A DNA stretch of 45,064 nt from Thermoanaerobaculia bacterium (GTDB lineage Bacteria > Acidobacteriota > Thermoanaerobaculia > Thermoanaerobaculales > Sulfomarinibacteraceae). Under the pieces are notes generated by a model, which did not search any database, was not told the origin of the DNA, and saw nothing but the letters and a program-made list of their open reading frames with translations. Where the stretch lies: assembly GCA_027061805.1 (NCBI GenBank), contig JAMOWA010000036.1, positions 1 to 45,064 on the forward strand, in the 5' to 3' direction. Position numbers and translations under genes: made by a program. Below are positions 2,579 to 13,082 of this stretch, piece after piece; within the stretch, counting starts at the first letter, position 1, and every line of letters starts with the position of its first letter.

Positions 2579-4975
2579 ATGACCCCCGTCAAGCCGAGCT
2601 CCATCGCCGAGATCCTCCAGCAGGCTGCATCCGAGGGGAGGACCAGCCTCTACGAGCACGAGTGCTACGAGCTGCTCGCCGTCACCGGTGCCGAGGCGGC
2701 GCCCGTGTCCCGGCTCATCCCGGTGGACCAGCGTCCCCACCAGGGCGACCTGGACGCCATCCCGGGCGACAGGATCGTGCTGAAGGTGGTGTCGCCGGAC
2801 ATCACCCACAAGACCGAGGCCCGGGGGGTCCGCATCGTGGCCAAGGAGATCGGGGCCGTGGAGGCGGCCTTCGAGCTCATGCTGCGGGAGGTCCCCGAGA
2901 CCTATGCCGCCTGGCTGCTCGACCACGAGGGCGAGATCCCGGAGGCGTTGCGGGGGCTCGGCCGGCCGGAGCTCGAGGAGCGCCTTCGGGAACGGATGCT
3001 GGGGATCCTCCTGTGCCAGTTCATCCCCGCGGACGCCCAGGGCTTCGGCACGGAGCTCTTCGTGGGCATCCGGAGGACCGCCGAGTTCGGCCCCATCATC
3101 ACCGCCGGTCTCGGCGGCGTGGAGATGGAGATCCTGGCGCGGGAGACCCGGCCCGGCGCCGCCGTGGCCATCTCGCCCACCGGCCTGGTGGATGGCCGGG
3201 AGTTCTTCGAGCTCTTCACGCGGACGCTGAGCTACCAGAGGCTCTCGGGCCGCATGAGGGGCTCCCGGCGGCAGGTGGCCGACGAGGTGTTCGTGGAGTG
3301 CTTCCAGGCCTTCATCGACACCGCCAACGCCTTCTCCGAGGTCAACCCGGATGCGGAGTTCCACATCAACGAGCTCGAGGTGAACCCCTTCGTCATCTCC
3401 GGTGGCCACATCGCGCCGGTGGACGGCGTCTGCTCCTTCGGGCCGGCGCTTCCGGCCCCGCCGCCCAGGCCCGCCCACAAGATCGCGAAGCTGCTCGCCC
3501 CGGCCTCCGCCGCCGTCATCGGGGTGTCGTCGAAGGGCATGAACATGGGGCGGATCATCCTCCGGAACATGCTGGCGGCGGGCTTCGACCGCGACCGGAC
3601 ATGGATCGTCCGGCCGGACACGGAGGAGCTCGACGGCGTGCGGTGCGTCCCCTCCATCGCCGAGCTTCCGGAGAAGGTGGACCTCTTCGTGGTGGCGGTG
3701 GGTGCGGCCCAGGTGCCGGCCGTCATCGACGAGCTCATCGACCACGACCGGGCCAACGCCGTGATCCTGATCCCCGGGGGGCTCGGCGAGAAGGAGGGCA
3801 GCCAGGAGCTGGCGCGCCGGCTCGAGGCCAAGATCCGGGATGCCCACACCTCGGGGGACGGCGGCCCGGTGTTCATCGGCGGCAACTCGCTCGGTGTGAT
3901 CTCGCACCCCGGCCGGTACGACACCATGTTCATCCCCGAGATCAAGCTCCCCAAGTCCCGGGGTGACCACGAGCGTCACACCTGCTTCATCTCCCAGTCG
4001 GGCGCCTTCATCATCGCGAACCTCAGCCGGATGCCGTGGTTCGATCCCGCCTACGCCCTGTCCATCGGCAACCAGATCGACATCACGGCGGCGGACCTGC
4101 TGGAGCACATCCGGAGCTACCCCGGCATCGACGTCTTCGCCGTCTACATGGAGGGCTTCCAGCCGGGGGACGGGCTGGCCTTCTCGCGGGCGGTCCGGGA
4201 GGCCGTGGCCCGGGGCAAGGACGTGGTCTTCTACAAGGCCGGCCGGACCAGCGAGGGCCGCTCCGCCACCGCGGGTCACACGGCCTCCGTGGCCGGCGAC
4301 TACGCCGTGTGCGAGGCGGCGCTCGAGGAGGCGGGTGCCTTCGTGGCGTCCACCTTCGACGAGTTCTCCGACCTCCTCCAGCTCTGCACCTTCCTGCGGG
4401 GGAAGAGGGTCCGCGGCACCTCGCTGGCGGCCCTGTCCAACGCGGGTTTCGAGTCGGTCGGGATGGCGGACTCGCTCCGGGGCGACCGTTGCCGCCTGGA
4501 GCTGGCCGGATACTCCGAGGGGACCCGGGAGGCCCTCGCGGCGGCGCTCGCCCGGCACCGGCTGGACGGCCTCGTGGACGTGAAGAACCCCTTCGACATC
4601 ACGCCCATGGCCACGGACGCGGCCTATGCCGAGCTGCTGACCACCCTCCTGGCGGAGCCGGCCGTGGACCTGGCGGTGGTGGGGATCGTCCCGCTGACCC
4701 CCGCGCTGCAGACCCTGCCGCCGGACGACCGCTGGCCCGAGTCCATCCACCACGAGGAATCCATCGCCAGGCTCCTGCCCGCCGTGGCCCGGGCCTCGGA
4801 CAGGCCCGTGGTGGCGGTGGTGGACTCCGGAGAGCTCTACGACCCCCTGGCCGACGAGCTCGGCCGGGGCGGGATGCCCGTCTTCCGGCGGGCCGACCGG
4901 GCCGTCCGGGTCCTGTGCCGCTGGGTGAGCGTGAAGCTCCGCCAGGAGGCCCTGGCGGCGGGAGGTGGATCGTGA
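2579..4975 (+). CDS. fused ADP-forming acyl-CoA synthetase (ATP-grasp first)
   Basis: An NDP-forming acyl-CoA synthetase catalyses acyl-CoA + ADP + Pi to acid + CoA + ATP. All domains lie in one 798-residue chain. The ATP-grasp (beta) part is N-terminal, about residues 20-260, with KVVSPDITHKTEARGV and NELEVNPFVI. The CoA-binding Rossmann domain starts near 300 (LAPASAAVIGVS) with IPGGLGEKEGS near 400. The succinyl-CoA-synthetase-like part follows from about 460 (FISQSGAF) with the likely phosphohistidine H567 in TAGHTASVAGDY. This beta-then-alpha order differs from the more familiar alpha-then-beta fusions. An AGGAGG site sits 6 bases before the ATG. It lies 86 bases after iorB, and its position suggests it makes ATP from the aryl-acetyl-CoA produced by IorAB, as in peptide-fermenting archaea. 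Acid specificity cannot be read from the sequence. Confidence 0.85.
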   Translation: MTPVKPSSIAEILQQAASEGRTSLYEHECYELLAVTGAEAAPVSRLIPVDQRPHQGDLDAIPGDRIVLKVVSPDITHKTEARGVRIVAKEIGAVEAAFELMLREVPETYAAWLLDHEGEIPEALRGLGRPELEERLRERMLGILLCQFIPADAQGFGTELFVGIRRTAEFGPIITAGLGGVEMEILARETRPGAAVAISPTGLVDGREFFELFTRTLSYQRLSGRMRGSRRQVADEVFVECFQAFIDTANAFSEVNPDAEFHINELEVNPFVISGGHIAPVDGVCSFGPALPAPPPRPAHKIAKLLAPASAAVIGVSSKGMNMGRIILRNMLAAGFDRDRTWIVRPDTEELDGVRCVPSIAELPEKVDLFVVAVGAAQVPAVIDELIDHDRANAVILIPGGLGEKEGSQELARRLEAKIRDAHTSGDGGPVFIGGNSLGVISHPGRYDTMFIPEIKLPKSRGDHERHTCFISQSGAFIIANLSRMPWFDPAYALSIGNQIDITAADLLEHIRSYPGIDVFAVYMEGFQPGDGLAFSRAVREAVARGKDVVFYKAGRTSEGRSATAGHTASVAGDYAVCEAALEEAGAFVASTFDEFSDLLQLCTFLRGKRVRGTSLAALSNAGFESVGMADSLRGDRCRLELAGYSEGTREALAAALARHRLDGLVDVKNPFDITPMATDAAYAELLTTLLAEPAVDLAVVGIVPLTPALQTLPPDDRWPESIHHEESIARLLPAVARASDRPVVAVVDSGELYDPLADELGRGGMPVFRRADRAVRVLCRWVSVKLRQEALAAGGGS

Positions 4976-5077: not shown

Positions 5078-5854
5078 ATGGACCGGGCACCGCGGATTCT
5101 CGTGACCAACGACGACGGCTACACGGCCCAGGGAATCCAGGTCCTGGCCGACGCTCTCGAGAGCCTCGGGGAGATCTGGGTTGTGGCGCCCAACAGGGAG
5201 CAGTCGGCGGTCTCCCACGCCCTCACGCTCCACAGGCCGCTCAGGGTCGGAAAGATGGGGGAACGCCGCTTCACGGTGGACGGGACGCCCACGGACTGCG
5301 TGACGCTCGCCGTGGGCAACCTCATGGCGGACTGCCCGCCGGACATCGTGGTCTCCGGGATCAACTTCGGGCCGAACATGGGGGTGGACGTCCACTACTC
5401 CGGCACGGTGTCCGCGGCCTTCGAGGGCGTGATCCTGGGCTTTCCCGCCATCGCCGTCTCCCAGCAGCTGGGGGAGGGGTTCAGCTTCCACGCGGGGGCG
5501 CGGTTCGCGCGGGAGCTCACGGCCTGGGTCCTGGAGCACGGCCTGCCCCGGGACACGCTGCTCAACGTGAACGTGCCGGTGGTGCCGCCGCGGGGCGTGA
5601 AGCTCACCCGGCTGGGGACCCGGCGCTACACCGAGGCCGTCCTGGAGCAGCGGGACCCCCGCGGCCGCCGGATCTACTGGATCGGCGGGGGCGAGCCCCT
5701 GTGGGAGTCCATCCCCGGGACGGACTTCCCGACCCTCCACGAGGGCTGCATCACCGTCACGCCGCTGAACCTGGACATGACCGACACGGCCTTCCTGGGG
5801 GACCTCCTCCTGGACCCGCCCAGCTGGGTCACCGGGGACGCCGATGGGGTCTGA
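5078..5854 (+). CDS. surE: 5'/3'-nucleotidase SurE
   Basis: SurE is a metal-dependent survival-protein phosphatase acting on nucleoside monophosphates. The 258-residue length is typical. The metal site NDDG is at residues 11-14. The family blocks APNREQSAVSHALTL (about 38-52) and SGINFGPNMG (about 91-100) are intact. It appears to be translated from a leaderless mRNA because the -10 hexamer ends six bases before the ATG. The next gene, pcm, begins inside its 3' end with an 11-base overlap. The surE-pcm pair is also known in proteobacteria, where it neighbours nlpD and rpoS; neither is present here. Confidence 0.93.
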   Translation: MDRAPRILVTNDDGYTAQGIQVLADALESLGEIWVVAPNREQSAVSHALTLHRPLRVGKMGERRFTVDGTPTDCVTLAVGNLMADCPPDIVVSGINFGPNMGVDVHYSGTVSAAFEGVILGFPAIAVSQQLGEGFSFHAGARFARELTAWVLEHGLPRDTLLNVNVPVVPPRGVKLTRLGTRRYTEAVLEQRDPRGRRIYWIGGGEPLWESIPGTDFPTLHEGCITVTPLNLDMTDTAFLGDLLLDPPSWVTGDADGV

Positions 5855-6503
5855 CGGCTTCGCCTACCAGCGTCAGCGCATGGTGGACGCCCTCAGGGAG
5901 GAGGGCATCACCGACCGGCGGGTCCTGGAGGCCATGAACGAGGTTCCCAGGCATTTCTTCGTGCCCTCCCACCTGAGGCATCAGGCCTACGGCCAGGACG
6001 TGTCCATCGACATCGGCGAGGGGCAGACCATCTCACAGCCCCGGGTGGTGGCGGCCATGACCCAGGCGGCGGCGGTGAAGCCGTCCTCTCGGGTCCTGGA
6101 GGTGGGGACGGGCTCCGGCTACCAGGCCGCCATCCTGGCCACCCTCTGCCAGTTCGTCTTCACGGTGGAGCGGATCGCCTCCCTGGCCCGGGAGGCCAAG
6201 CGCCGTCTGGACGCCCTGGGGTTCGAGAATGTCAGTGTGAAGGTCATGGACGGGACGCTGGGGTGGCGGGCCATGGCACCCTACGACGCCATCCTGGTGA
6301 CCGCCGGGGCCCCGGAGATCCCCGAGCCGCTGCTCGAGCAGCTGGCGGACGGAGGGCGGCTGGTGGTGCCCGTGGGGGACCGCGGGCGGCAGGTGCTCAC
6401 CGTGGTGGAACGGCACGGTGAGCGGTTCCGCCGCATGGAGCTCCAGGGCGCCTGCTTCGTCCCGCTCATCGGACGGCACGGGTGGCGTGAGGAGGGGCGA
6501 TGA
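5844..6503 (+). CDS. pcm: protein-L-isoaspartate O-methyltransferase
   Basis: This enzyme transfers methyl from SAM to abnormal L-isoaspartyl residues so that they can return to aspartate, a protein-repair reaction. It is 219 residues, the normal size. The Pcm-specific substrate segment [15 protein letters not shown] is near residues 59-73. The SAM-binding motif [16 protein letters not shown] is at about 85-100. The ATG lies inside surE in another frame. Its own end overlaps the next gene by four bases (ATGA), so coupled translation is likely. Confidence 0.93.
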
Positions 6504-7108
6504 AGGAGCGGATCTTCCAGTGGATCGAGGCGCTGGCGGCCTCGCCCCATCCCGGGTGGTGGCTCTTCGCGCTGGCCTTCGCCGAGAGCTCGTTCTTCCC
6601 GATTCCACCCGACGTGCTGCTCATCACCCTGGGCATGACCGACCCGAAGCGGGCCATCTGGTACGGGATCGTGTGCACCGCGGGGAGCGTGCTGGGCGGT
6701 GCGGCGGGCTACACCATCGGGCTCTACGGGGGCCGGCCGCTGCTCTACCGCTTCTTCAACCAGACCAAGGTGGCCGCCGTGGAGCGGCTGTACGACAGGT
6801 ACAACGCCTGGGCCACGGGAATCGCGGGCCTGACGCCCATCCCCTACAAGGTGTTCACCATCGGCGGGGGCGCCTTCAAGATCGACTTCCGGATCTTCAT
6901 GCTGGCCTCCCTGGGCTCCCGGGGCCTGCGCTTCATGGCCGAGGGGATCCTGCTCCACTTCTTCGGTGCCGCCGTGAAGGACTTCCTCTTCGAGTGGTTC
7001 AACTGGCTCACGCTGGCCGTGGCCGTGGTGGGCATCGCCGGGTTCTGGGTCGTCCACCACGTGGGGCGCAGGGCCCACCGGCACGCGGAGGAGAACCCGG
7101 AGGGGTGA
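6500..7108 (+). CDS. YqaA/DedA-like membrane protein (VTT domain)
   Basis: A 202-residue integral membrane protein of the SNARE-associated/VTT (DedA-like) superfamily. An early motif, [15 protein letters not shown] (about 31-45), resembles the conserved acidic/proline re-entrant segment. [13 protein letters not shown] follows near 70, and [16 protein letters not shown] near 113. The last strongly hydrophobic helix is at about 173-190, and a basic, His-rich tail follows. Relatives are implicated in lipid or undecaprenyl-phosphate flipping; the substrate here is unknown. It overlaps pcm at its start and the acylphosphatase gene at its stop (ATG/TGA sharing). Confidence 0.8.
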
Positions 7109-7398
7109 TGACGCCTCCGACCACCGCCCGCCGCTTCGTGGTGCACGGGAGGGTCCAGGGCGTGGGGTTCCGGGCCTTCGTGTGGCGTGCGGCCGTGGAG
7201 CTGGGCCTCTCCGGCTGGGTCCGGAACCTGCCCGACGGCACGGTGGAGGTGCTGGCCGGCGGGACGCCGGAGGCGCTGGAGCGGCTCGCGGCCCGCCTGG
7301 CCGGCGGTCCCCGCTGGGCCGTGGTGGAGCGTGTGGAGGCCCGTGAGGCACCGGTGGAGGACCTGCCCGCCGGCTTCTCCGTGAGGTCCGGGCCGTGA
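7108..7398 (+). CDS. acyP: acylphosphatase
   Basis: A 96-residue acylphosphatase that hydrolyses carboxyl-phosphate bonds such as those in acetyl phosphate or carbamoyl phosphate. The diagnostic [11 protein letters not shown] (about residues 14-24) supplies the phosphate-binding loop and catalytic Arg. [13 protein letters not shown] (about 36-48) supplies the catalytic Asn. The ATG was chosen because it shares bases with the TGA of the preceding gene and gives the standard family length. The following gene starts with a GTG that overlaps this stop. Confidence 0.92.
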
Positions 7399-8435
7399 CC
7401 CGGATCCTCGCGCCGGAGCCCCCGGGCGCCGCCCGGACGCTCGAGGCGGTGCTGGACAGGGCCGTGGGCGACGCCGTTCCCCCGACGGCCGTGGTGCTCG
7501 AGGACCGGACTGGCGCGTGGTTGGGCACACTGGCCTCCCTGGGTCCTCGGGAGCGGGCCGGAACCGTGGCGGTGGTCCTGGGCGAGGCCGGCGCCGTGGC
7601 CGCGGCGGCCCTGGGTGTGGGCGGGGCAGCCTGGTGGCCGGTGGGAACCCCCGCCTTGGAGGCCGCCGTCCGGGCGGCGGCCGCGGCGGCCGTCCCGGAG
7701 GGAGCCCTGCCGGCGGGGGCCGGCCGGGCGCTCCTCGAGGCCTCGGAGGGGGGGCTCCTGGAGATCGGCCACCGGCGCCGCTCCTTCTGGAGGCACCAGC
7801 TCGGCGAGCCGGAGCTCCGCTTCCGCCTGGCCGGGGCCCTGCGGGAGCTGGGACGGGAAGCCGTGCTGGTGGAGGGTCCCGTGGCCCTGGCGGACCGTGA
7901 GACCGTCCGGGAGCTCCTGGACCGGTGGATGGAGCACCCCGGTGGTGCATCCATCGTGCGGACCGAGGGGATCGCCGTCGCGGATCTTCCCGGGGGCGGT
8001 GGCCCCCCATCCGGGGATCCGGTGGCCCGGCCGGTGTTCGCGCTCCCCTCGGGGGACCGGGTGGGCGCCTGGGCCGCGGGCGAGGACCGGACTGCACCGG
8101 GGGCCGGGTGGACCGCCGTGCCGGCCGACACCGCCGGCGAGGGCCGGAGCTGGCGCCTGGGCAGGGGTGGCGGGATCGTCCCGGAGGTCCTGACCGCCGT
8201 GCAGGTGGAGAACGCCGCCGCGGACGGTGCGCCCGCCGTGCGGGTGCCGGGGTGGCTCGCGGTGGGCCTCTTCCGGGGGACCCCATCGTGGCTGCTCGTG
8301 GAGCGTCTGGCCCGGGCCGCCGCCGGCGGGGGCGTGCCGCTCTGGGTCCCCAACGTGGGGGATGCCTCGCTCCGGCTGCTGATGACCCTCCAGGTTCCCC
8401 TGTGGGTGGACGGGCCGGCCGTGCCGGAGACGTGA
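7395..8435 (+). CDS. protein of unknown function, possibly with a degenerate receiver-like N terminus
   Basis: A 346-residue protein that I do not recognise. It begins at a GTG overlapping the acylphosphatase stop, so it should be co-translated with the surE-pcm-acyP run. Residues about 1-105 are Ala/Gly/Val-rich. Within them, a stretch ending [21 protein letters not shown] is faintly like the last strand and helix of a response-regulator receiver domain, but no phospho-acceptor is evident. The middle ([18 protein letters not shown], about 126-143) is basic and may contact nucleic acid. The C terminus ([20 protein letters not shown]) is hydrophobic but not a clear membrane helix. Codon use matches the neighbours, which supports a real gene. 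No function is assigned. Confidence 0.65.
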
Positions 8436-8506: not shown

Positions 8507-10465
8507 ATGCAGGATTCCATCGACTACCGTGCCGTGGGTCTGAAGGTGGGGCTGGAGGTGCACCAGCAGCTCCTCACGGCCAGGAAGCTCTTCTGCCGGT
8601 GCCCGGCCGGGCTCTACACCCGGGAGCACGACGGGACCGTGCTTCGCCACATGCGTCCCACGCTCTCCGAGCTGGGTGAGTACGACGGCACGGCGCTCAT
8701 GGAGTTCAAGACCCGCAAGAACATCGTCTACCTGCTCCACCGGAAGACCACCTGCACCTACGAGATGGACGACACGCCACCGTTCCTGGTGAACGAGGAG
8801 GCCCTGGAGATCGCCGTGGAGCAGTGCCTCATGCTGGGCTGCGACATCGTGGACGAGGTCCACATCGCGCGCAAGCAGTACCTGGACGGCTCCATCCCCA
8901 CGGGCTTCCAGCGCACGGCGGTGGTGGGCGTCAACGGCAGGATCCCCTTCCGGGACCGGGAGCTCACCATCACCCAGGTGACCCTGGAGGAGGACAGCTG
9001 CCGGGAGGTCTCGGACCGGGGCCACCTCATCGTGTGGCGCACGGACCGCCTGGGCATGCCCCTCATCGAGACCGTCACCGGCGCCGAGCTGCGCACGCCG
9101 GAGGAGGTGGAGGAGGCCATCCTGCTCATCGGGCGGGTCTGCCGTTCCACGGGCCACGTGCGGACGGGCCTGGGAGCCTCCCGGCAGGACGTGAACGTCT
9201 CCGTGGCGGGCGGCCGCCGCGTGGAGATCAAGGGCGTGCCCCGGGCGGCGCTGGCCGCACGGCTGGTGCACGGCGAGGCCATCCGCCAGGTGAACCTGCT
9301 CCGGATCCGCGACGAGCTCCATCGCCGCGGCCTCCGCTCCGCGGACGACGTGGTGAGCCACGTCCACGACGTGACGGAGCTCTTCCGCGAAGGGCCCCTG
9401 GACCTGCTCACGGAGGCCCGCTGGCGGAGCTGGCTGGAGTCCACGGGACGCCGGCCGGGTTTCGAGGTGGGCACGGGACCGTTCTCCGTGAGGGCCGTCC
9501 GGCTGCCGGGCCTGGCCGGGATCCTGGCCCACCCCACCCAGCCGGGGAGGACCTTCGCCCACGAGCTGGCGGGCCGCGTGCGGGTCATCGCGACCCTGGA
9601 CCAGCCACCGGTGCTGCTGCACTCGGAGGCCTGGCCCGCGGGGGCGGGGGAGTCCCTGGAGGCCCTCAGGAGGGCCACCGGCGCCGGGCCGGAGGATGCC
9701 CTCGTGGTGGTCTGGGGTGCGGCCGACGACACGGAGACCGCGGCGTCGGAGATCCGGCTCCGTGTGGAGGACGCCACGGAGGGTGTCCCCCTGGAGACCC
9801 GCCAGCCCTTCCCCGACGGCTCGACCGACTTCGAGCGGATCCTCCCGGGGCCCGACCGCATGTACCCCGACACCGACAGCCCCCCCCACGCCCTGGACCC
9901 CGCCCACGTGGAGCGACTCCGGGCCGCCCTCCCCGAGCCGCCCTGGGAGCGGGAGGCGCGGTACGCGGCCGCCGGTGTCCCCCTGGACGAGACCCGCTTC
10001 CTGATCCGGCGGGGCGGGTCGCGGCTGGTGGACCGCCTGGTGGAGGAGGCCGGCGCGGACCTGAAGCGGGCGGCCCTGTTCGTGGCCCGGGACCTCAAGG
10101 CGGCCCGGCGCGGGGGCCTTGCCGTGGACGAGATCCCGGACGGGGCCTGGGTGGGGCTCTTCGCGCTGTTCGGGGAACGTCCGGTGCTCTGGGAGGCCCG
10201 GCGGGAGATCGTGGCGGCCCTGGCGGCCAGCCCTGCCCTGGAACCCGCGGCGGCCGTCCGCGAGCTCGGCCTCGGCGAGCCGCCCGGGGACTGGGAGGCG
10301 CGGGTCCTGGAGCTGGCGGCCACGGCCCACCCGGACCACCCCGACGGGAGCGTGGAGCAGCGGCTGCGGTTCCTCATGGGGCGGGCCATGCGGGGCCTCC
10401 GGGGCCGCGTGCCGGCCCGCGAGGTCCTGGCGGTGCTCCGTGGGCAGCTGGAGGTGCAGGCATGA
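8507..10465 (+). CDS. gatE: archaeal-type glutamyl-tRNA(Gln) amidotransferase subunit E
   Basis: GatE is the kinase/amidotransferase subunit of GatDE, which converts misacylated Glu-tRNA(Gln) to Gln-tRNA(Gln) with ATP. The 652-residue chain starts with GLKVGLEVHQQLLT (about residues 11-24), the GatB/GatE cradle signature, then KLFCRCP. The segment YLDGSIPTGFQRT (about 125-137) and TGLGASRQDVNVSV (about 221-234) follow. Roughly 280-450 looks like the AspRS-type insert that separates GatE from bacterial GatB. A YqeY-like helical tail ends the protein. The start is set by GGGGAGG just upstream. It overlaps gatD by four bases (ATGA). The family is classically archaeal, so its presence here suggests lateral transfer. 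GatB was considered, but length, insert and linkage to gatD rule it out. Confidence 0.88.
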   Translation: MQDSIDYRAVGLKVGLEVHQQLLTARKLFCRCPAGLYTREHDGTVLRHMRPTLSELGEYDGTALMEFKTRKNIVYLLHRKTTCTYEMDDTPPFLVNEEALEIAVEQCLMLGCDIVDEVHIARKQYLDGSIPTGFQRTAVVGVNGRIPFRDRELTITQVTLEEDSCREVSDRGHLIVWRTDRLGMPLIETVTGAELRTPEEVEEAILLIGRVCRSTGHVRTGLGASRQDVNVSVAGGRRVEIKGVPRAALAARLVHGEAIRQVNLLRIRDELHRRGLRSADDVVSHVHDVTELFREGPLDLLTEARWRSWLESTGRRPGFEVGTGPFSVRAVRLPGLAGILAHPTQPGRTFAHELAGRVRVIATLDQPPVLLHSEAWPAGAGESLEALRRATGAGPEDALVVVWGAADDTETAASEIRLRVEDATEGVPLETRQPFPDGSTDFERILPGPDRMYPDTDSPPHALDPAHVERLRAALPEPPWEREARYAAAGVPLDETRFLIRRGGSRLVDRLVEEAGADLKRAALFVARDLKAARRGGLAVDEIPDGAWVGLFALFGERPVLWEARREIVAALAASPALEPAAAVRELGLGEPPGDWEARVLELAATAHPDHPDGSVEQRLRFLMGRAMRGLRGRVPAREVLAVLRGQLEVQA

Positions 10466-11856
10466 CGAGCTCTCCCGATCCGCTCAAGGGGTACCGTGGC
10501 CTGGCCCGGGAGCGCCTGGCCGCCTGGGGTGTCCGGGTGTGGAGCGACGTGCGCGTGGTGAACACGGCGGGGTCCACCTTCGAGGGGGTCATCCTGCCGC
10601 GCTCGGAGACCTTCGACGACCTCCACGTGGTGCTCAAGCTGAAGAACGGCTACAACGTGGGCCTCCACGTGGACCGCGTGGCCACCATCGAGGAGGTGGG
10701 GTACAGGGAGGCCCACTACAAGATTCCCGAGCAGGAGTTCCCGCGCCGGGACGACCTGCCCGCCGTCACGCTCCTGGGGACCGGCGGCACCATCGCGTCC
10801 CGGCTGGACTACCGGACCGGCGCGGTGATCCCCGCCTTCACCCCCGGCGAGCTCTACGGGGCCGTGCCGGAGCTCGCGGACCTGTGCAACCTGACCACCA
10901 AGAAGATCTTCGGGGTCTTCTCCGAGAACATGTCCTGGCCCGAGTACGCCACGCTGGCCCGGGCCATCGGGGAGGAGATCCAGGCCGGCGCCGACGGCAT
11001 CGTCATCGGACACGGCACGGACACCATGGGCCACACGGCCGCGGTGCTCAGCTTCATGGTGCAGGACTCCCCCGTCCCCATCGTGCTGGTGGGCAGCCAG
11101 CGCAGCTCCGACCGGCCCTCCTCCGATGCCGCCCTGAACCTGATCCACGCCGTGCGGGCGGCGGGGGAGGGGCCCATCGCCGAGGTGCAGATCTGCATGT
11201 TCGGCCCCACCTCGGACCGCTACGGACTGCTCCACCGGGGGACCCGCTGCCGGAAGATGCACAGCTCCTACCGCTCCACCTTCCGGACCATCGGGGCCAT
11301 CCCCCTGGGCATGGTGGGCCGGGAGGGCTTCACGATCCTGGATCCCCACTTCCGCCGTCGGGACCCCTCGCGGCGCGTGAAGGTCGACCCCGTGTACGAC
11401 GACCGCGTCACCATCCTCTACTACCACCCGGGCATGAAACCCGACGTGGTGGACGCCCTGGTGGACGCCGGGTACCGCGGAATCGTCATCGCGGGCACGG
11501 GTCTCGGCCACGTGAACAAGCCGCTGTACCCGGCCCTCGGACGGGCCACGGCCGCCGGGGTCCACGTGATGATGACCGTCCAGACCCTCTGGGGCTTCGT
11601 CCAGATGTACGTCTACGAGACCGGCCGCGAGCTGCTGGACCTGGGGATCGTACCGCTGGACAACATGCTCCCCGAGACCGCGCTCATGAAGCTGGGCTGG
11701 GTGCTGGGCCACACCCACGACCGCGAGGAGGTCACCCGCATGATGCAGACCCCCATCGCCCACGAGATCACCGAGCGCGAGCCCCACAACGGCTACCTCA
11801 TCCTCCAGGGCGGCCTCCCCGAGGTGGAGGAGTTCGTCACGTCGCACTGGAAGTAG
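10462..11856 (+). CDS. gatD: archaeal-type glutamyl-tRNA(Gln) amidotransferase subunit D (asparaginase-like)
   Basis: GatD hydrolyses glutamine and passes ammonia to GatE. The 464-residue protein has an N-terminal extension of about 100 residues (GatD-specific, with the VVLKLKNGYNVGLHVDRV barrel segment). A full L-asparaginase-type amidohydrolase fold follows. The catalytic motifs are GTGGTIASR with T110 and GHGTDTMGHTA with T186-D187. LVGSQRSSDRPSSDAALNL follows near residue 212. The N-terminal extension and the adjacent gatE separate it from ordinary L-asparaginase. Its ATG overlaps the gatE stop, and GGAGG lies 6-10 bases upstream within gatE. Confidence 0.9.
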   Translation: MTSSPDPLKGYRGLARERLAAWGVRVWSDVRVVNTAGSTFEGVILPRSETFDDLHVVLKLKNGYNVGLHVDRVATIEEVGYREAHYKIPEQEFPRRDDLPAVTLLGTGGTIASRLDYRTGAVIPAFTPGELYGAVPELADLCNLTTKKIFGVFSENMSWPEYATLARAIGEEIQAGADGIVIGHGTDTMGHTAAVLSFMVQDSPVPIVLVGSQRSSDRPSSDAALNLIHAVRAAGEGPIAEVQICMFGPTSDRYGLLHRGTRCRKMHSSYRSTFRTIGAIPLGMVGREGFTILDPHFRRRDPSRRVKVDPVYDDRVTILYYHPGMKPDVVDALVDAGYRGIVIAGTGLGHVNKPLYPALGRATAAGVHVMMTVQTLWGFVQMYVYETGRELLDLGIVPLDNMLPETALMKLGWVLGHTHDREEVTRMMQTPIAHEITEREPHNGYLILQGGLPEVEEFVTSHWK

Positions 11857-11973: not shown

Positions 11974-12014
11974 CGGGGATGCCATCCGGAGGAACGGCTG
12001 CTCAGGAGGTTGAG

Positions 12015-12761
12015 ATGGATCTGGACGAGCTCAGGAGCCGGGTCGAGGAGATCAGGTGGTGGCACCGGATCGATCTCGGGAACGGGATCGTGACACCGGG
12101 GATCGACGATACGCCGGACAAGCTCCGGCGGGCGCGCATCCCCGACGATCTCTCCGGCTGGAGCGTGATCGATGTCGGGGCGTGGGATGGCTTCTTCTCC
12201 TTCGAGTGTGAAAGACGTGGGGCGGATCGTGTCCTGGCGGTGGACAGCTTCAGCTGGGGCGGACCGGGCTGGGGAACCAAGGACGGATTCGATCTTGTCC
12301 ACCAAGTTCTCGATTCGAAGGTCGAGTCCAAGGAGTGCGATCTCTTCGAACTTGATCCGGAGGTGGATGGAACATTCGATCTCGTCCTGTTTCTTGGGGT
12401 GATCTACCACCTGCGGCATCCGCTCCTGGCTCTGGAGAAGATGCGGTCGCTGACCAGCAGGATGATGGTGCTCGAAAGCGTGATCGAGATGGCCGATCAC
12501 AGGCGTCCCGTCGTTTCGTTCTATCCCAACGACGAGTTGAAGTCGGATGGGAGCAATTGGTGGGGCCCCAACCTGCCGGCTCTCGTGGGGATGGTCGAAT
12601 CCTCGGGTTTCTCGCGGGTCGAGGTTGTCGACTATTTCGTGGAACCCCGTTCCCGCCTGAAGAGAGTTGCTCGAAGGATCTACAACGCTGCAACCAAGAA
12701 AGATCACGCACTCTGCGACAGTCAGAGCTGGGGGCGAGCGATTCTCCATGCGTACCCGTGA
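12015..12761 (+). CDS. CmoB-like class I SAM-dependent methyltransferase (DUF1698 type)
   Basis: A 248-residue methyltransferase whose opening WHRIDLGNGIVTPG and core VIDVGAWDGFFSFECERRGA (SAM motif I, about residues 55-74) match the tRNA mo5U34 methyltransferase-like family. VLFLGVIYHLRHPLLALEK (about 124-142) is the usual motif after the SAM fold, and NWWGPNLPALVGMVESSGF follows near 180. True CmoB proteins are longer; shorter relatives act on varied substrates, so tRNA is not certain. The chosen start has AGGAGGT four bases upstream; an in-frame ATG at 11979 would add 12 residues and be leaderless. The DNA is visibly less GC-rich, with more A/T-ending codons than its neighbours (for example around 12400-12560), a sign of recent acquisition. 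Confidence 0.75.
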   Translation: MDLDELRSRVEEIRWWHRIDLGNGIVTPGIDDTPDKLRRARIPDDLSGWSVIDVGAWDGFFSFECERRGADRVLAVDSFSWGGPGWGTKDGFDLVHQVLDSKVESKECDLFELDPEVDGTFDLVLFLGVIYHLRHPLLALEKMRSLTSRMMVLESVIEMADHRRPVVSFYPNDELKSDGSNWWGPNLPALVGMVESSGFSRVEVVDYFVEPRSRLKRVARRIYNAATKKDHALCDSQSWGRAILHAYP

Positions 12762-13082
12762 GATCCACTGAACCCGGTCTCCGGGATGACGGCGTGGACA
12801 AGCTGGCCGCCCTCGTATCTCCGTCAGAGAACGGGGTTGCTCTCCGGTCTTGGTCCGGGGGACCGCCCGGGTGGTTTTCCACCGGTTCCGCGTGAACTGG
12901 AATCAGCTCCGATACTGTACTGCGGTTCCTGTCGATCCGGATCATCCGGGGAGATTCCTGACGATTGGTGCAGTCGAAGCGTCATGAATGATTCGGGCTG
13001 GAGTGTCCCAGTCCGGCCCGTGGGAACAGGGACACGGTAGTTGGCCAGCTCTCTCCCCCGTCTGGCACTTTGGAGGTGAGCC
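12762..13082. other. non-coding interval, no gene recognised
   Basis: About 320 bases between the methyltransferase and the histidine kinase. Base composition stays moderate, like the methyltransferase gene. Short open frames exist on both strands, but none has a ribosome site or recognisable protein. It may be the tail of the same imported segment. Confidence 0.5.

Follow-up and report, generated by a model that had tools for sequence, protein, structure and literature searches.

A 2022 review, citing Sheppard and Soll 2008, confines the present-day occurrence of the amidotransferase GatDE to archaea and gives its co-evolution with tRNA(Gln) as the reason that GlnRS was never taken up by archaea (PMC9499178). 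What, then, are gatE and gatD genes doing in an acidobacterial genome? Both genes lie in the window analyzed here, which is the entire contig 36 (45,064 bases) of a 68-contig MAG (3.1 Mb, 96.85% complete).

The gatE gene (8507..10465, + strand) begins with ATG behind a ribosome-binding-like site, GGGGAGG, and encodes Glu-tRNA(Gln) amidotransferase subunit E (652 aa), as identified by curated models, Pfam, and structure matches. The gatD gene (10462..11856, + strand, ATG start) encodes subunit D (464 aa), the glutaminase/asparaginase subunit. The end of gatE and the start of gatD share ATGA at 10462-10465, a four-base overlap, and both frames are intact. GatE scored above both curated GatE equivalog cut-offs (NF003107, 477 versus 456; TIGR00134, 430 versus 319.6) and far under those of all GatB models (scores of 56-130, cut-offs of 315-680). 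In agreement with the definition of the family, it consists of a GatB/GatE catalytic domain, assigned by Pfam, an AspRS-like GAD insert (protein residues ~279-426), and a helical YqeY-like tail. GatD also scored above its curated cut-offs (TIGR02153, 491 versus 324; NF003217, 490 versus 310), and it fits the family definition in having a GatD_N domain, both asparaginase domains (Pfam), and the motifs GTGGTI and HGTDTM.

Among solved structures, the top matches of GatE were archaeal (1zq1_C, E 4e-91; 2d6f_C, E 8e-90), and GatD matched the archaeal GatDE chain 2d6f_A (E 5e-117). These alignments ran near end to end, which excludes a chance match. Modeled with AlphaFold2 (mean pLDDT 80), GatE had the archaeal GatDE-tRNA(Gln) complex 2d6f as its best structural match (Z 36.9, rmsd 3.9, 512 residues); its insert matched AspRS insert domains (Z ~11-12) and its tail the N-terminal domain of human GlnRS (Z 8.4). 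Hence both subunits, all domains, the motifs, and the fold are common to the window pair and the archaeal enzymes of Pyrococcus abyssi (1zq1) and Methanothermobacter thermautotrophicus (2d6f). Bacterial GatCAB is more distant: the catalytic domain and tail of GatB are homologous to those of GatE, but GatB has no AspRS-like insert and its partner amidase is GatA. Similarly, type I L-asparaginase has its catalytic domain in common with GatD, which is set apart by GatD_N and the equivalog cut-offs. Scores under every GatB cut-off and the presence of the insert ruled out gatE as a GatB; the GatD_N domain and the cut-offs passed ruled out gatD as a plain asparaginase. Collectively, gatE and gatD belong to the GatDE amidotransferase family, and both are intact over their full length. 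An earlier note on this DNA had described them as an overlapping, complete GatDE pair distinct from GatB/GatA, and frames, curated models, and structure matches all bear this out.

Since the source is a MAG and sister genomes lack gatED, one might suspect a non-functional leftover or a binning contaminant. The genes upstream argue otherwise. On the + strand lie surE (5'/3'-nucleotidase, 5078..5854), pcm (protein-L-isoaspartate O-methyltransferase, 5844..6503), a gene for a DedA/VTT-domain membrane protein (dedA, 6500..7108), acyP (acylphosphatase, 7108..7398), and a gene for a 346-aa protein of no known family (7395..8435), which had no NCBIfam or Pfam match. The earlier note had rightly placed gatED in a bacterial setting downstream of surE-pcm-acyP; it overlooked the DedA/VTT gene between pcm and acyP and the 346-aa gene between acyP and gatE. 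Beginning with surE, the surE-pcm-dedA-acyP block is 72-75% identical in nucleotides to that of sister genomes of the same family. In two of these (L313 and L314) synteny extends to the last gene of the block, that of the 346-aa protein, which is kept at ~35% identity behind acyP, and no gatED follows; in a third (L315), surE-pcm-dedA-acyP is syntenic and gatED is absent at the site. GatE was found nowhere in these three genomes. The recurrence of the block in same-family genomes indicates that the contig is bacterial and not the product of a binning mistake. Given also the intact frames, the tight overlap, and the purifying selection on relatives' genes described below, a leftover or contaminant is very unlikely.

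In a same-order genome (G262), gatED occupies another site, beside a frame that we take, by eye from its sequence, to be LpxC-like; its GatE and GatD are 67% and 80% identical to those of the window. Because sister genomes keep the block without gatED and G262 has gatED elsewhere, the pair is a lineage-specific insertion at the window site. Downstream of gatD is a SAM-methyltransferase-like gene (12015..12761, + strand) over which G+C is 60% (window 12001-13000), versus 70-78% around it. None was found near the sister loci fetched, and this gene is probably a separate acquisition.

Did the pair come from archaea? The family is known from archaea and gatED is a lineage-specific insertion here, as would be expected if an archaeal gatDE operon had recently been transferred into this bacterium. 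The earlier note had called the pair archaeal-type and proposed a tree in which bacterial sequences branching inside archaea would support transfer. In our trees, however, all bacterial GatE formed a separate group on one side of a branch with 100% support and a length of ~1, against 24-32 archaeal GatE (Thermoplasmatota and the two PDB sequences from Pyrococcus and Methanothermobacter only). Gene order is opposite as well: gatE-gatD in almost all bacterial loci, and gatD-gatE in archaeal loci. Among the matches listed, the GatE sequences nearest to that of the window came from acidobacterial and myxococcal MAGs (64-67% identity), and the window GatE formed one group with acidobacterial and myxococcal MAG sequences (98% support). 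By branching and gene order, the window GatDE thus falls outside the archaeal GatDE clade as sampled here (Thermoplasmatota, Pyrococcus, Methanothermobacter). These results make a recent archaeal transfer extremely unlikely, and the 100% branch together with the reversed gene order implies that any archaeal-bacterial exchange was ancient. By contrast, acidobacterial GatE sequences were scattered over several separate places in the tree, adjoining other phyla, which implies exchange of GatE among bacterial phyla. At the window site, gatED was inserted behind the surE-pcm-dedA-acyP-orf block, probably out of a pool of genes that Acidobacteriota and Myxococcota exchange. We also noted that the GatE of one Thermoplasmatota MAG labeled archaeal (G334, L102:164-2089) falls among the bacterial sequences, no gatD being found beside it, and that two other Thermoplasmatota genomes (G366 and G375) have two GatE copies each, with differing scores.

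We then asked whether the host depends on GatDE for Gln-tRNA(Gln). The genome encodes one full-length GlnRS (568 aa) that scored 745.9 bits against a cut-off of 425.8 and is above NF011291 and TIGR00440, a single bacterial GluRS (484 aa) above its curated model, and bacterial AspRS, LysRS, and AsnRS, each likewise above its curated model. No GatB was found in this genome; the GatB model was matched by gatE alone, under the cut-off. An archaeal-style indirect Gln pathway goes with the lack of GlnRS, and here GlnRS is present. With GatB absent too, GatDE overlaps the direct GlnRS route and not GatCAB, so neither of the situations envisaged by the earlier note, a sole route or redundancy with gatCAB, is found. 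That GatDE is complete and GatCAB absent would suit a sole or main route to Gln-tRNA(Gln) in the archaeal fashion; nevertheless, a GlnRS passing all model cut-offs in the same genome, and close relatives that manage with GlnRS alone, having no GatE or GatB, make such a route improbable. A role as an Asn route was ruled out by the presence of AsnRS and the bacterial type of AspRS.

Other amidotransferases are retained in a comparable way. Deinococcus, Thermus, and Bdellovibrio likewise keep one despite having AsnRS and GlnRS (PMC4206432), but theirs is a GatCAB tied to an AspRS that recognizes tRNA(Asn) (PMC4206432), whereas the window genome has GatDE and no GatB, and its only AspRS is bacterial-type, alongside AsnRS.

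The host is not alone in this arrangement. GatE was above cut-off, in a patchy distribution, in 40 of 297 sampled Acidobacteriota genomes, with a fragment in one more. The earlier note had contemplated that GatDE might prove common in the phylum and not transferred: the first holds in part, the second does not, as the genes have moved between bacterial phyla. GlnRS was above cut-off in 37 of the 41 GatE-containing Acidobacteriota versus 144 of the 256 others (Fisher p 2e-5, with kinship ignored). Scanning a single genome for each species gave at least 569 GatE-encoding stretches, the best 80 of which came from Acidobacteriota, Myxococcota, Planctomycetota, Ignavibacteriota, Bacteroidota, Chlorobiota, Gemmatimonadota, Krumholzibacteriota, Fermentibacterota, Cloacimonadota, WOR-3, KSB1, and others. 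Fifty bacterial GatDE genomes of many phyla, the host included, were checked for GlnRS: it was above cut-off in 41, present as contig-edge pieces in two (G305 and G325), and missing in seven. GatB was above cut-off in 15 of 49 GatDE genomes (34 were without), including two of the seven that lack GlnRS (G316 and G326). In the remaining five MAGs (G306, G314, G315, G320, and G341) neither GlnRS nor GatB was found; these genomes may be incomplete, or they may rely on GatDE, and here GatDE as the sole or main route may hold. One of them, a Neomarinimicrobiota MAG (G320, L070), has GatDE and two GluRS-like genes, and from its gene content is a candidate for a bacterium relying on GatDE for Gln-tRNA.

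Across phyla, no conserved gene neighborhood was found, save a PhoH-like neighbor in five Bacteroidota/Ignavibacteriota loci, the choice of ORFs being crude in G+C-rich loci. In seven bacterial loci (L057, L062, L067, L078, L100, L104, and L105), GatE occurred without gatD in the fetched flanks. Two of these (L062 and L100) have pcm just downstream of gatE, and pcm is near gatE in the window too.

Next, we considered whether the bacterial enzyme works, and on what. In most pairs of relatives dN/dS was 0.06-0.34 for gatE; for gatD it was mostly 0.02-0.13, with higher values of 0.4-0.5 in pairs with one locus (L023). Purifying selection on both genes indicates that bacterial GatDE is generally a working enzyme. 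Across bacteria and archaea, 78 positions are conserved and 14 are fixed differently between the two, many of the latter adjoining conserved catalytic-domain motifs. At a core identity of 0.60-0.65, tail identity was 0.17 among bacteria versus 0.34 among archaea, approximately half, in sets drawn from many bacterial phyla but mostly from one archaeal phylum. The window pair therefore differs from archaeal GatDE in its separate deep clade, its gatE-gatD order, the 14 class-specific positions, and the weakly constrained tail, and its host differs in having GlnRS and a bacterial-type tRNA(Gln).

That tail matters for recognition. According to the 2d6f work, the GatE tail reportedly does the reading of the D-loop. 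Archaeal GatDE recognizes the D-loop and the A1:U72 pair of tRNA(Gln) (PMC9499178); bacterial tRNA(Gln) has the discriminator G73, versus A73 with A1:U72 in archaea (PMC9499178). The two tRNA-Gln genes of the host (anticodons TTG and CTG) both have U1-A72 and G73. The weakly constrained tail, the presence of GlnRS, and the bacterial-type tRNA(Gln) together suggest that tRNA recognition has changed.

We postulate that GatDE is an active accessory amidotransferase with altered tRNA recognition, probably correcting misacylated tRNA(Gln), a reading to which we give even weight, its catalysis, substrate, and role being inferred. GatD would hydrolyze glutamine to ammonia, and GatE would phosphorylate and then amidate the glutamyl group on the misacylated tRNA, as the intact family domains and conserved residues suggest. 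GlnRS would supply Gln-tRNA(Gln) directly, which makes GatDE accessory on top of it in this organism; most likely, stray Glu-tRNA(Gln) from the single GluRS would be converted to Gln-tRNA(Gln), as quality control or back-up. With the U1-A72, G73 tRNA(Gln) of the host and the weakly constrained tail, GatDE would have to read tRNA(Gln) otherwise than the archaeal enzyme does.

Some observations sit less well with an accessory role. A pure proofreading enzyme might be less patchy in its distribution. Moreover, the host GluRS has retained arginine at the position of Thermus Arg358, a residue tied to tRNA(Gln) rejection that would leave little Glu-tRNA(Gln) to correct. The single GluRS of GlnRS-less relatives, however, likewise keeps this arginine, so it is no guide to tRNA(Gln) mischarging. 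Across 91 GluRS the Arg358 equivalent was lost almost only in second copies, the exception (G292) being a single K inside a gapped stretch of the alignment. Two genomes with GatE and GlnRS but no GatB (L258, G013; L249, G228) have a second GluRS with Lys at the Thermus Arg358 position.

A changed substrate would account just as well for the loose tail and the 14 class-specific changes. In this main rival the chemistry, with glutamine-derived ammonia and a phosphorylated carboxylate, is kept and the target would be some other tRNA, misacylated or modified, or else a glutamate or aspartate carboxylate outside tRNA. Both canonical tasks are unnecessary given GlnRS and AsnRS, tail conservation is roughly half the archaeal level at equal core identity, the 14 positions lie in many cases next to catalytic-domain motifs, and gatD is missing near some bacterial GatE. 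On the other hand, the MGRxM..LRGR tail signature and the helical fold are retained in many sequences, the window retains the residues that bacteria and archaea conserve in common, and no conserved neighboring gene points to a pathway. We regard a changed substrate as rather unlikely, and keep correction of misacylated tRNA(Gln) as the preferred reading.

For the bacterial genes as a whole, we suggest, with a confidence falling slightly short of even, that they represent an overlooked, widespread clade beside GlnRS with a new substrate or a translation-fidelity role, and not the archaeal indirect Gln-tRNA route. Open-access text searches, with subscription papers outside their scope, returned no earlier report of bacterial GatDE. 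Since public annotation pipelines carry GatE and GatD models, bacterial gatE and gatD have possibly been annotated yet undiscussed. The occurrence of GatDE in many bacterial phyla, mostly beside GlnRS and often without GatCAB, removes the "archaea only" premise for the ancestry of GatDE, and it opens to direct test the supposition that GatDE and GlnRS are incompatible. A gatDE annotation by itself is an unsafe guide to the Gln-tRNA(Gln) pathway of a genome.

Two further features of the host were noted. A selenocysteine tRNA is predicted in its genome (L166:226-324, G000:C60), and at 2579-4975 of the window a 798-aa protein that combines CoA-binding and ATP-grasp domains with a succinyl-CoA ligase-like domain resembles an NDP-forming acyl-CoA synthetase.
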